This document shows, piece by piece, positions 28,724-33,449 of a stretch of DNA of 64,000 nt. Source of the DNA: Acidobacteriota bacterium (lineage in GTDB: Bacteria; Acidobacteriota; Terriglobia; Acidiferrales; UBA7541). Each line of letters starts with the position of its first letter. Position 1 is the first letter of the stretch. The stretch lies in contig QHYZ01000058.1 of assembly GCA_003225295.1 (NCBI GenBank), positions 1 to 64,000 on the forward strand, given 5' to 3'. Below the pieces are notes generated by a model that did no database searches, was not told the origin of the DNA, and worked only from the letters and a program-made list of their open reading frames with translations. Position numbers and translations under genes: made by a program.

Positions 28724-29074
28724 ATGCGATTCCGGACTTCGCTCTGCCTAGCCACCCTGTTTCTGGTTTGTTTCACCATGGCAGCCTGGTCCACCCTGCT
28801 CCCCGCCCCGTCTGCGGCGATTAACGAGCAACCGACCCCCGACCAGCAATCGTTGTGGGGACAAATCGCCTCCGTGGGAGATCGAGAATTCTCCGTACAG
28901 GTGAAGAAGGACCAGGGCGTGAACACCGTCCCATTCCTGGTCGATGGCCAGACGAAAGTCGAAGGCCAACTCGCTGTGGGCGCCGAAGTCACTGTGGAGT
29001 ACCGCTCCGAGGAAGGCAGGAACATCGCCCTGCGCGTCATCGTGACTCCGGGCTCCGGAATGAACTTGTACTAA
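28724..29074 (+). CDS. secreted protein with OB-like beta domain
   Basis: A 116-residue protein with a signal peptide (residues 5-32, LCLATLFLVCFTMAAWSTLL). The mature part has SLWGQIASVGDREFSVQVKKDQ and VEGQLAVGAEVTVEYRSEEGR, like the DUF5666-type small beta barrels common in acidobacteria. GGGAGGAAATTCC precedes the ATG. It lies about 110 bases before the trehalose operon and may be read with it. Function unknown. Confidence 0.75.
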   Translation: MRFRTSLCLATLFLVCFTMAAWSTLLPAPSAAINEQPTPDQQSLWGQIASVGDREFSVQVKKDQGVNTVPFLVDGQTKVEGQLAVGAEVTVEYRSEEGRNIALRVIVTPGSGMNLY

Positions 29075-29186
29075 CGAAACATACCCCGCATACTCTAGAA
29101 GCCGGTCACCAACAACCGTAATTTCAACGCGGCCGCCCGCCCAGCCCTCGCGGCCCGCTTTCATTTTTGAAAACCAAGGAGTCCTC

Positions 29187-31490
29187 ATGCGCACGACTCT
29201 GAAAATCATTCTGCCCTTGATCGTTAGTGTCGCAACGGTATCTCTATTCTTCGCGGCATACCAGGTGCGCACGGAGAAGAGCGCTTTGCGAAGCGACCTT
29301 TCGCACCGCGCGGAAATTCTCGGTGAAAGTCTCCAAGAGAGTGTGGAGCCGTTGCTCGACCGCGCAGCGGATAAAAGCTTGCAGCGTCTCGTCGAGCGCT
29401 TCGGTCAGCGCGAGCATTTGAAAGGCGTCGCGGTGTACAGCAAAGCAGCCGCCGTGCTGGCGATCACTTCCGGTCTCCCGCCGGCCCTCAAGATGCGTCC
29501 AACGGCTGCCACTCGGGCCGCCCAGGAGGACACCGGTGTAGGCGAATTCCTGAGTGCGGAGCAAACCGCTGCCGCCAATGAAGATTTCCATTCCCCGATT
29601 CACATTTATGCGTTGCCGCTTCACCATAACGGTGAAATTGCGGGCACGCTGGTTCTCTTCCACGACACCGGGCACATCGACCGACAAGTCTCCCGCACCC
29701 TTCGCGATTCCCTGCTCAATGCCCTGGTCCAAACGTTTCTGATCACCGGGCTCGCGGTGATTCTTGTCCAGTGGACATTCACCGGTCCGCTGACGCGCAC
29801 GGCAAAATGGCTGCGAACGCTGCGCACCGGCCAGGCAAACGCGCCGCCGGCAGTTTCGAATGGCGAGATTCTCGACGAAATCCATCACGAAGTGAAGCAC
29901 CTCGCCCGTGACCTGGATACGGCACGCGCTGCCGCGGAAGAAGAAGCGCGGTTGCGTGACTCGAGCGCTTCTCTGTGGACTGCCGAGCGCCTGCACGTCA
30001 GCCTGCGCAATAAACTTCGGGAAAAACCACTTTACGTTGTTTCGAATCGCGAGCCCTACATGCACGTCTTCAGCGAGAACGAGAAGTCCATTAACATAAT
30101 CGTTCCGGCGAGCGGCGTAGTCACCGCGCTCGAACCCGTGCTACGCGCCTGCAACGGCACCTGGATCGCCAATGGCTCCGGGAGCGCCGACCGCGAAGTC
30201 GTCGATGCACACGATCGGCTGCGCGTGCCACCCGATCGCCCCAGCTACACGCTGCGCCGCGTGTGGCTCAGCGATGAGGAAGACAAAGGCTACTACGAAG
30301 GTTTTTCAAATGAAGGTCTCTGGCCGCTGTGCCACATCGCGCATACAAGACCAGTCTTCCGGCCCGAGGACTGGCTGCAGTATCAGAAAATCAATCGCCG
30401 ATTTGCCGACGCCGTTTTGCAGGAAATGGAGGGCACGGATTCACCGATTCTTCTTGCCCAGGATTATCATTTCGCGCTGCTTCCGCGGATGGTCAAGGAA
30501 GCGCGGCCTGACGCGCGGGTGGCGATTTTTTGGCACATTCCGTGGCCCAATCCGGAGGTCTTTGGCATTTGTCCGTGGCAGCGCGAACTTGTCGATGGAT
30601 TGCTGGGCGCCGACCTCATAGGCTTCCAGATTCAATCGCACTGCAACAATTTTCTGGAGACCGTGGATCGGGTACTCGAGGCGATCACCGAATGGGATCG
30701 TTTCGCAGTGAATCGACAGGGTCACGTCACGCGCGTGCGCCCATATCCGATCAGCGTGGCGTTTCCGGAGAATTCCCGAGGCGCCAATGAATCGCGCAGC
30801 GCCGGTTCAGAGCGCGCCGCGCTGTGCACCCAGATGGGTATTGAAGCTTCCCTTCTGGGCATTGGCGTTGACCGCGTGGACTACACCAAGGGGATTCTCG
30901 AGCGTTTCCGCGGCATCGAGCGCTTTTTCGACATGAATCCTGCTTACCAGCAGCGTTTCACTTTCGTGCAGATCGGAGCGCCCAGCCGCACGGACATCGA
31001 GCGTTACAAGAATTTCCTGGCTGAAGTCAGCGCCGAAGCCGAACGCATCAACTCGCGCTTTCAAACCTCGCGGTGGAAACCCATCGCGTTTCTCAAGAAA
31101 CACCATTCGCACGAAGAGATCGCACGGTATTACCACGCCGCTTCCTTGTGCATGGTCACGTCCCTGCATGACGGGATGAATCTGGTCGCCAAGGAATTCA
31201 TTGCCTCGCGCCAGGATGAACGCGGCACGCTGATCCTCAGCACGTTTACAGGCGCGGCGCACGATCTTTCCGATGCCCTGCTGGTCAACCCCTACGACGT
31301 CTCGCAACTCTCGGATAGCATCCATCGCGCGCTGGAAATGTCCGAAGAGGAGCAATCGACGCGCATGCAGCGGATGCGTCACAACGTGCGCGAGCGCAAC
31401 ATCTACCGCTGGGCCGCGCATCTACTCTCCGATCTCACCGAAATTCGCATTGAACTTCCGGAACGTGCGGAGATACCTCAATGGTCATAA
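29187..31490 (+). CDS. membrane sensor-HAMP-GT20 fusion (trehalose-6-phosphate synthase-like)
   Basis: A 767-residue protein with an unusual domain order. Residues 7-24 are a membrane helix, 25-177 an extracytoplasmic sensor-like region, 178-196 a second helix, 197-250 a HAMP-like linker, and 281-760 a GT20 catalytic domain. The catalytic part has [42 protein letters not shown] and [13 protein letters not shown], which are GT20 motifs for NDP-sugar and sugar-phosphate binding. It should make trehalose 6-phosphate from UDP-glucose and glucose 6-phosphate. The nucleotide-binding segment reads [11 protein letters not shown] instead of the usual GGLAVAL type, so the product may differ; glucosylglycerol-phosphate is another GT20 product. 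First gene of a three-gene operon. Confidence 0.88.
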
Positions 31491-31563: not shown

Positions 31564-32223
31564 ATGAACGTCGCTGAAACCCCGTTCGAATTCGTTACCG
31601 TTTCCTATCTCACGCGGATCGGCAACCAGTCCGCGGGCACACTCGCGGAGTTGCTGACCGGGCTGGAGCATTGCAGCGACGCGTCTATCTTTCATCACAC
31701 CTTTCAGACGCTGGGCAGCCATCATTTTCTTACCGATGGTTTCTCCAACGATTTCGCGCAATGGGCGCTCTCGGACACCAACCGGAATGATCTCGCCGAA
31801 CAGCTCGCGGCGCTGGACATTCGCGACTACGTTTCCATCGCAGCGCTGCGCAGCGATCTCTGCCGTGTTGTCGGTGAATATTGTGCGGCGTATCCAAACT
31901 TTGCGAGCCAGTCCGCGCTCGAGCGTTTTTATTTCTGCGAGAGCGTGGAACTGACCGCACCGCTCGGGCGAAATGCGCGAACGCTCGACGAATTCCGGGA
32001 AGGCATCGAGCACCTCAGCCACTCAGGCTTCTACTTTCATTTCATCTCCTCGCGGCTCAGGCTGCAGCTGCGGACCAACGATTTTTCGCACTGGCTTGCC
32101 GATGGCCTGGGACTCAAATCTCTGGCAGAGAGCGTCAATCACATTGACATTTACACCAACACTTTGGACAGCGCGCGAGCCAAGCTGCTTCGGCTGATCG
32201 ACCGCGAAAGGAGAAAAGCATGA
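31564..32223 (+). CDS. DUF5752 family protein
   Basis: A 219-residue all-helical protein of the DUF5752 type (FEFVTVSYLTRIGNQSAGTL, then ASIFHHTFQTLGSHHFLTDGFSNDFAQWAL, and FHFISSRLRLQLRTNDFSHWL). GGAAGA precedes the ATG at 31564. It lies between the GT20 fusion and TreT-like GT4 and overlaps the latter in ATGA. DUF5752 proteins are found with trehalose or sucrose-type glycosyltransferases, but their function is not known; the position suggests a regulator or subunit of the glycosyltransferases. Confidence 0.8.
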   Translation: MNVAETPFEFVTVSYLTRIGNQSAGTLAELLTGLEHCSDASIFHHTFQTLGSHHFLTDGFSNDFAQWALSDTNRNDLAEQLAALDIRDYVSIAALRSDLCRVVGEYCAAYPNFASQSALERFYFCESVELTAPLGRNARTLDEFREGIEHLSHSGFYFHFISSRLRLQLRTNDFSHWLADGLGLKSLAESVNHIDIYTNTLDSARAKLLRLIDRERRKA

Positions 32224-33449
32224 GTGAGACCCTGGCCCTCAGCCGGATTCCACTGGATCAATATGCCGAACTGCTTGGCGCCAGCGAGATTGAGGAACTT
32301 CGCGCTCTTGCGAAACCTTTGCGCGGCCGCAGCATCGAGATGATTAATTCCACCGCCGTTGGCGGGGGCGTCGCAGAGATTCTGAATCGCCTGGTGCCTC
32401 TCGCGGAAGAGCTGGAAATCAACATCAAATGGGACGTGATGATGGGCGGCGAGGATTTTTTTGAGGTTACCAAGTCCTTCCACAATGCCTTGCACGGCGC
32501 GCCGTATCACGCCAGCCCGAAGGATTTCGAAATTTTTCTCGCTTACAGCGAACGCAATCGCGCGACCCTCCCCCTGGACGCCGAGTTTGTGGTGATTCAT
32601 GATCCGCAGCCCGCCGGACTCATTGAGACCCGCCAGCCCGGGGCGAATCATTGGGTGTGGCGCTGCCATATCGATCTTTCGCATCCCAATCGCACGGTCT
32701 GGGACTTCCTCGAGAAATTCGTCTCGCGATACGACTGCGCCCTGTTTTCTTCGCCGGAATTCTCGCGGCAGCTTCCGATTCCGCAGTATTTGTTCTATCC
32801 GGCGATCGACCCATTGTCGGAAAAAAACTGCGACCTCGATCCGCAGTTCGTATCGCAGGTCCTCGGTCGCTATCACATCGATCCCCAGCGCACCATCCTC
32901 ACGCAAATCTCGCGCTTCGACCGGCTGAAGGATCCGGTCGGGGTTATCCGGGCCTATCGGATCGTAAAGCGTTATTTCGATTGCCAACTGGTCCTCGCTG
33001 GCGGCAGTGCGTCCGACGATCCCGAAGGCGCCATAGTGTTAAAAGAAGTATTGCGCGAAGCGGACAGCGATCCCGATATCAAAGTGCTGGAACTTCCTGC
33101 CTGGGCACCGCTAGAAGTCAACGCGCTGCAACGCGCTGCGACGGTGGTCATACAGAAAAGTTTGCGCGAAGGCTTCGGGCTCACGGTCTCCGAAGCGCTG
33201 TGGAAGAAAAAGCCCGTGGTGGCTTCCGCCGTCGGCGGCATCCCGGTTCAGATCATCCATAAACACACCGGGCTGCTTGCGCATTCCGTGGAAGGCACGG
33301 CGTATCAGATTCGTTTTTTGCTTTCGCATCCGGAAATCGCGGCAAAACTCGGCGAGCATGGGCATCAGCACGTAAAGGAGAATTTCCTCATTACCCAGAA
33401 GTTGAAGCGTTACCTGACGCTCTTTCTGACGCTCGCCCGGGGATCGTGA
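32220..33449 (+). CDS. treT: GT4 trehalose synthase (TreT-like)
   Basis: A 409-residue GT4 glycosyltransferase. INSTAVGGGVAEILNRLVPL at the N-terminus and VIHDPQPAGLIE are characteristic of TreT and trehalose phosphorylase. The C-terminal domain has LTQISRFDRLKDP, LVLAGG and LREGFGLTVSEALWKKKPVV with the catalytic Glu pair. TreT makes trehalose directly from NDP-glucose and glucose, or the reverse. The start overlaps the DUF5752 stop, so expression is coupled. It is a second, independent trehalose route beside the GT20 enzyme; no trehalose-6-phosphate phosphatase is in the window. Confidence 0.87.
   Translation: MSETLALSRIPLDQYAELLGASEIEELRALAKPLRGRSIEMINSTAVGGGVAEILNRLVPLAEELEINIKWDVMMGGEDFFEVTKSFHNALHGAPYHASPKDFEIFLAYSERNRATLPLDAEFVVIHDPQPAGLIETRQPGANHWVWRCHIDLSHPNRTVWDFLEKFVSRYDCALFSSPEFSRQLPIPQYLFYPAIDPLSEKNCDLDPQFVSQVLGRYHIDPQRTILTQISRFDRLKDPVGVIRAYRIVKRYFDCQLVLAGGSASDDPEGAIVLKEVLREADSDPDIKVLELPAWAPLEVNALQRAATVVIQKSLREGFGLTVSEALWKKKPVVASAVGGIPVQIIHKHTGLLAHSVEGTAYQIRFLLSHPEIAAKLGEHGHQHVKENFLITQKLKRYLTLFLTLARGS

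Follow-up and report, generated by a model that had tools for sequence, protein, structure and literature searches.

A putative membrane sensor fused to a GT20 trehalose-6-phosphate synthase in Acidobacteriota

The fusion gene and its neighbours

We analysed a 64,000-nucleotide stretch of DNA (the window) from an Acidobacteriota genome of 8.1 Mb in 385 contigs that is 96% complete. The close relatives of this genome are Acidobacteria MAGs, mostly labelled 'gp2'. All genes and features of the window described here lie on the forward strand. A single open reading frame (29187-31490) encodes a putative membrane-bound trehalose-6-phosphate synthase (TPS) of 767 amino acids, a fusion of a sensor and a GT20 domain. 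The domain order is transmembrane (TM) helix, extracytoplasmic Cache-type domain, second TM helix, degenerate HAMP domain, linker and GT20 TPS domain. The only match of the fusion protein in the genome was itself (E <= 0.001). A ribosome-binding-site-like AAGGAG motif (29176-29181) precedes the ATG.

An earlier note on this DNA proposed that a membrane sensor and a GT20 enzyme are joined in one protein. The open reading frame, Pfam, hydropathy and structure comparison agree with this architecture and enzyme family. The note also named what would speak against it, a start codon near 30000. Most homologues align from residue 1, with the start codon at the same place. The in-frame starts between 29493 and 30060 are TTG and GTG only, and the in-frame ATG at 30060 corresponds to residue 292, so that a protein begun there would be missing the first part of the GT20 domain, Arg288 included. 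A short soluble form as the sole product was therefore rejected.

Upstream lies a gene for a small DUF5666 protein (28724-29074, by Pfam) with an N-terminus that looks by eye like a signal peptide. It recurs in this position at many loci of the genus, and every locus from outside the genus lacks it. This protein is a possible extracytoplasmic partner of the sensor. The next gene downstream encodes a DUF5752 protein (31564-32223, PF19027), and its stop codon overlaps the start (ATGA) of a gene for a TreT-type GT4 trehalose synthase (32220-33449), which matched the TreT entry 6zj4 with E 4.3e-123. No match was found between the sensor and TreT by hhalign.

Sensor and HAMP-like region

Hydropathy located the two membrane helices claimed by the earlier note at residues 7-25 (TM1, 29205-29261, within a model helix of residues 2-58) and 176-194 (TM2, 29712-29768). 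A third, weaker hydrophobic stretch (residues 301-319) lies inside the GT20 domain. The note's sensor-like region was also recovered, since structure prediction gave an alpha/beta domain between the helices, and structure comparison assigned it to the Cache fold. This domain (about residues 28-172, 29268-29702) resembles the sensor domains of WalK, KinD, DctB and CitA. The AlphaFold2 models had a mean pLDDT of 85.9 and pTM of 0.66 for the whole protein, and 87.1 and 0.68 for residues 1-265. In the models of the sensor, TM1 is a long helix that continues into the alpha/beta domain; TM2 is also long, and beyond it comes a second helix on the cytoplasmic side.

The best structural match of residues 1-265 was WalK (9a5d; Z 16.9, rmsd 3.5, 257 of 265 residues), an entry that is a full-length integrative model and not a crystal structure. 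The sensor crystal structures of WalK, KinD, DctB and CitA gave Z scores of about 13-15, and chemoreceptor Cache domains matched as well (Z 12-15 together with the sensor crystal structures). A Cache fold between two TM helices was thus found by comparing a predicted model with solved structures. The comparison with chemoreceptors in the earlier note stands to this extent; Cache/HAMP sensor kinases such as WalK are the better parallel.

Sequence searches gave fainter signals. No match to a Pfam Cache model was obtained for the window protein. In the set of 52 homologues, SMP_2 matched 17, sCache_3_2 11 and dCache_1 10 at E <= 0.1, and SMP_2 is given as a Cache family in the accessible part of the Cache survey PMC4822843. 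When the sensor profile was compared with the PDB by sequence only, four weak matches were obtained (best E 0.026), all to histidine-kinase sensor domains and including 5is1 (YycG/WalK) and KinD. An NCBIfam WalK match over residues 5-256 (E 4.6e-7, far under the model cut-off) was a lead that the fold comparison later bore out.

Pfam HAMP (PF00672) found no match in the window protein, and among 52 homologues it matched one full-length sequence at E <= 1 and, when the N-terminal parts were searched, five at E <= 0.1. Since Pfam misses the region, we used profile-profile comparison against 13 HAMP matches from the window genome itself (12 over the Pfam cut-off and one under). Residues 185-265 matched this HAMP profile with a probability of 88 and a score of 33.0 over 60 aligned columns. 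The highest score among 60 column shuffles was 14.2, reversal of the profile gave 8.6, and four control regions scored 8-13. With residues 195-262 only, the score was 28.5, against at most 12.6. These controls exclude a chance resemblance. The region directly follows TM2 and forms two helices (model helices 162-213 and 227-264). Together with the profile similarity, this supports the assignment of about residues 197-250 (29775-29936) as a degenerate HAMP domain. The HAMP linker of the earlier note therefore holds by its likeness to the genome's own HAMP domains, far over the shuffled controls, though not by a Pfam call. In the clade-ii sequences inspected a stretch after TM2 is absent.

The HAMP-like unit leads into a linker (AEEEARLR...WT, residues 251-279, 29937-30023), whose Trp264 is invariant in all 52 aligned fusions. 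Trp264 is also present in 6 of 17 sensor-less close relatives, so the linker is no hallmark of the fused form.

Catalytic domain and its acceptor

The GT20 domain covers about residues 280-752 (30024-31442) by Pfam, OtsA alignment and structure model. PF00982 matched residues 283-751 (E 9.3e-120), which corresponds to the full-length domain, and the model superimposed on 456 residues of the TPS from M. thermoresistibile (5jio) with a Z score of 46.4.

We compared 18 positions with OtsA from E. coli MG1655, in gene numbering. The positions were aligned, and the catalytic and phosphate-binding roles are those that we take them to have in OtsA. Fourteen of them are retained (R288, G310, Y370, W379, D426, H450, R563, K568, R601, D662, E670, W326, Y427 and N665). 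Among these, Arg288 and Arg601 are presumably the arginines that hold the acceptor phosphate. The other four are altered: OtsA Gly22 is Ser309, Trp42 is Asn329, His130 is Gln425 and Arg361 is His661. The earlier note was right that the substrate loop differs from the usual GGL type, as AGGL in OtsA is ASGV in the window protein.

The altered positions are mostly common to relatives that have no sensor. In 17 sensor-less relatives of the same clade, Ser309 is found in 16, Gln425 in 17, His661 in 16 and Trp at position 329 in none, and a relative from Aminobacter agrees with them at these positions, Ser309 included. They are therefore marks of the clade and not of the sensor. At position 329, a tally of 38 further fusions (the 51 others that were aligned, minus the 13 nearest) gave His in 27 and, among the residues listed, never Trp. 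We claim no link between Asn in place of His at this position and phosphatase loss, since phosphatase-less congeners have Asn, His and Ser.

The protein scored 426.3 bits with the NCBIfam OtsA equivalog model TIGR02400, under its cut-off of 564.85. It is a GT20 enzyme and likely, from its sequence, a TPS, though no OtsA equivalog by the TIGR02400 rule. This score and the four replaced residues could also mean that the glucosyltransferase uses another acceptor, such as glycerol 3-phosphate or a different sugar phosphate, with the sensor acting as in a receptor. OtsA Trp42, we believe, may contact the acceptor, with some doubt about its numbering, and because of this one position the substrate is given here as a prediction. 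We nevertheless regard another acceptor as improbable. Both arginines are retained, the glucosylglycerol-phosphate synthase model TIGR02398 scored lower still (296.3 bits, cut-off 569), and a PF02358 trehalose-phosphatase gene lies within 5 kb at 25 of 35 sensor-type loci (from 32 genomes; three loci are partial, with query starts at 81, 173 and 332). A change of substrate read from the loop itself was unsupported, as Ser309 is shared with 16 of the 17 sensor-less relatives and the arginines are kept. The neighbouring phosphatase genes, the two arginines and the clade-shared Ser309 favour glucose 6-phosphate as the predicted acceptor.

A trehalose locus with and without phosphatase

DUF5752 was found within 5 kb at 6 of the same 35 loci. 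When open reading frames adjoining the fusion were picked by eye for a phosphatase motif, 8 of 8 matched PF02358. In 38 loci from named genomes, 24 have DUF5752 and 27 have TreT, the latter count including fragments. Seventeen of these loci belong to near relatives; the other 21, several of them truncated, have DUF5752 in 7 and TreT in 10. DUF5752 adjoins TreT-type genes in several phyla, and in one locus (L014:1375-4232) the reading frames of both DUF5752 and TreT are broken in two, by a frameshift or an assembly error. DUF5752 is likely a functional partner of TreT; the open-licence literature searched contains no mention of it.

The window genome has no PF02358 match, even at E 10. TreY and TreS were also not found over their cut-offs, and the best sub-threshold score was 276 bits to TreS (cut-off 678). 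The putative operon here pairs two trehalose-related glucosyltransferases in a genome lacking the usual phosphatase (PF02358). Across 25 genomes of the genus, including this one, PF02358 was found in 4 (E <= 0.001). It is absent from 20 of the 24 sampled congeners, and 14 of the 21 genomes without it, our own counted, are at least 90% complete.

This absence raises the question of what the product serves. A sensor-driven TPS in a phosphatase-less lineage could make trehalose 6-phosphate as an intracellular signal and not as an osmolyte precursor, while TreT makes trehalose separately; this would be a new class of receptor with a Cache/HAMP sensor. The catalytic residues looked at are unchanged in the phosphatase-less genomes, the adjacent TreT can make trehalose, and the architecture is that of second-messenger receptors. 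The closest likeness is to cyclase-linked receptors, whose product is a cyclic nucleotide. We give this reading little credence, as regards both the signal and the new receptor class. Other HAD phosphatases can act on trehalose 6-phosphate: in S. acidocaldarius there is no canonical TPP and another HAD enzyme serves instead, according to the accessible part of PMC7688234. Moreover, the reading names no effector of trehalose 6-phosphate, and the phosphatase stays beside the gene in most other lineages.

Distribution and history of the fusion

A match to the fusion was found in 37 of 41 genomes, the window genome included. In the phylum, 123 of 297 genomes had a match, with at most three candidates scored per genome and many of the matches confined to GT20. 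Beyond Acidobacteriota, several other bacterial phyla have the fusion. By record titles, the full-length form occurs in NC10/Methylomirabilota, Omnitrophota, Elusimicrobia and Bacteroidota or Bacteroidales, and further in Melainabacteria, Deltaproteobacteria or Thermodesulfobacteriota, Curtissbacteria and Sungbacteria.

Two N-terminal hydrophobic helices were counted by eye in 75 of 82 homologous open reading frames of at least 300 bits. This set was collected by whole-protein similarity and leans to fused forms, so the count is no rate for the family. Six of the seven exceptions (L012, L014, L030, L036, L092 and L095) are truncated, masked, split or offset, and the seventh, L037, has one helix. 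The earlier note had held that absence of the sensor region in homologues would count against it. Most of the collected homologues keep the two helices, and sensor-less relatives exist as well. Among 20 sensor-less GT20 loci, selected because their match covered the catalytic part alone, 19 have no N-terminal stretch over a hydropathy of 1.5; the other, L123, has a stretch of 1.84 in an extension that perhaps precedes its start.

Over 58 and 54 representatives, mean identity to the window protein is 64% in the GT20 domain and 38% in the extracytoplasmic part. In 13 comparisons with congeners, where synonymous sites are near saturation and the values are rough, pN/pS of the Cache domain was 0.25-0.63 and below 0.4 in 11, and that of GT20 was 0.10-0.25. 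The dN of the Cache domain was the highest of the regions in 12 of the 13. Three variants (L066, L079 and L032) keep both TM helices and the linker, with the Cache domain replaced by a short loop, and L037 keeps one TM helix. These natural Cache-less variants are ready-made material on the question of gating. On a plasmid of Aminobacter aminovorans (L115:4782-6599), a GT20 relative has a hydrophobic stretch at residues 8-26 (score 2.7), and genes for a GT4 glycosyltransferase and an amylo-alpha-1,6-glucosidase lie nearby.

Such proteins point to the main rival of a receptor, a membrane tether with a vestigial sensor. The N-terminal region would do no more than hold the synthase at the membrane as a dimer, close to transport or to glucose pools linked to the envelope, and the Cache domain would be a structural leftover or a stabiliser of the fold. 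The Cache-less variants retain one or two TM helices, the Aminobacter relative has its hydrophobic stretch but no room for a Cache domain, and the HAMP domain is degenerate. However, a Cache-sized region has been kept, under constraint and over deep divergence, in the other full-length aligned homologues, and a HAMP-like unit with a fixed linker exceeds the needs of an anchor. We consider the tether unlikely, yet an explanation to be taken seriously.

A quick tree of 77 GT20 domains, which leaves 19 forks unresolved and joins some long branches, gave six changes among the sensor, soluble and TM-only states and placed three sensor clades around one soluble clade. By hhalign, these clades have sensor regions that are homologous to each other (probability 98.0-99.9). 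The sequences are therefore most simply explained by a single old fusion followed by losses.

Proposed mechanism

We favour, as somewhat more probable than its rivals taken together, a one-protein transmembrane receptor in which an extracytoplasmic signal would directly gate the TPS output. The earlier note's suggestion that an external signal controls the enzyme directly, with no kinase involved, is the best inference from the sequence. The domain order, its conservation, the retained catalytic residues and the gene neighbourhood are observed; dimerisation, the signal, the direction of control, the substrate and the product are what we infer.

In this model, a dimeric Cache domain outside the membrane would bind or sense a cue. 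The change would travel through TM2, the HAMP-like unit and the conserved helical linker to the GT20 domain. There it would shift the rate at which trehalose 6-phosphate is made from NDP-glucose and glucose 6-phosphate. In most lineages the neighbouring trehalose-phosphatase would finish trehalose synthesis, and in the lineage of the window, which has no such gene, trehalose may arise via another phosphatase or the adjacent TreT. An osmotic cue as the signal is a guess. Against the receptor we count the Cache-less homologues, the high Cache dN, the sensor-less relatives, the four altered OtsA positions, the lack of a Pfam match to HAMP or Cache in the protein and of PF02358 in the genome, and the clade-ii gap after TM2.

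If the receptor model is true, the cell could adjust a protectant in one step, without phosphorelay or transcription, and the output of a HAMP domain could be tested with a simple assay of sugar phosphates. The model may also be relevant to the response of soil Acidobacteriota, most of them uncultured, to drying and rewetting.

Comparison with known systems

We found no description of a Cache- or HAMP-fused GT20 in the accessible parts of the open-licence literature searched, and an architecture of this kind may well be annotated in domain-architecture databases without having been discussed. In its accessible part, the Cache survey PMC4822843 names chemoreceptors, kinases, cyclases, phosphatases, transcription factors and channels as outputs; it lists no glycosyltransferase there, and 'glycosyl' appears only in a reference. 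A biosynthetic enzyme as output would extend this list. The accessible text of PMC3164672 describes trehalose genes of Ramlibacter without HAMP, and that of PMC1183210 contains nothing on a sensor-GT20 fusion.

The catalytic fold is that of the OtsA/GT20 synthases of E. coli and M. thermoresistibile, with 14 of the 18 compared OtsA positions shared, whereas E. coli OtsA has no N-terminal extension and differs at the other four, the substrate loop among them. The GT20 relatives that have no sensor, those in Acidobacteriota and the one from Aminobacter, share the clade residues but have no Cache/HAMP region. The downstream gene matches archaeal TreT (GT4; 6zj4, from Thermoproteus uzoniensis by its title), but in the window it sits in a putative operon together with a sensor-fused TPS and DUF5752.

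Receptors with cyclase, c-di-GMP enzyme or serine phosphatase outputs likewise join an extracellular Cache domain to a cytoplasmic enzyme. Unlike GT20, these outputs synthesise or degrade second messengers or have proteins as their targets, as far as the accessible part of PMC4822843 describes them. The WalK-type histidine kinases have the same order of TM1, Cache, TM2 and HAMP, and the shared fold extends over 257 of 265 residues, but the output of the fusion is a GT20 enzyme and no kinase domain was found in the window protein. The fusion combines known parts, and in it a TPS replaces the kinase behind the domain order of a Cache-HAMP receptor.
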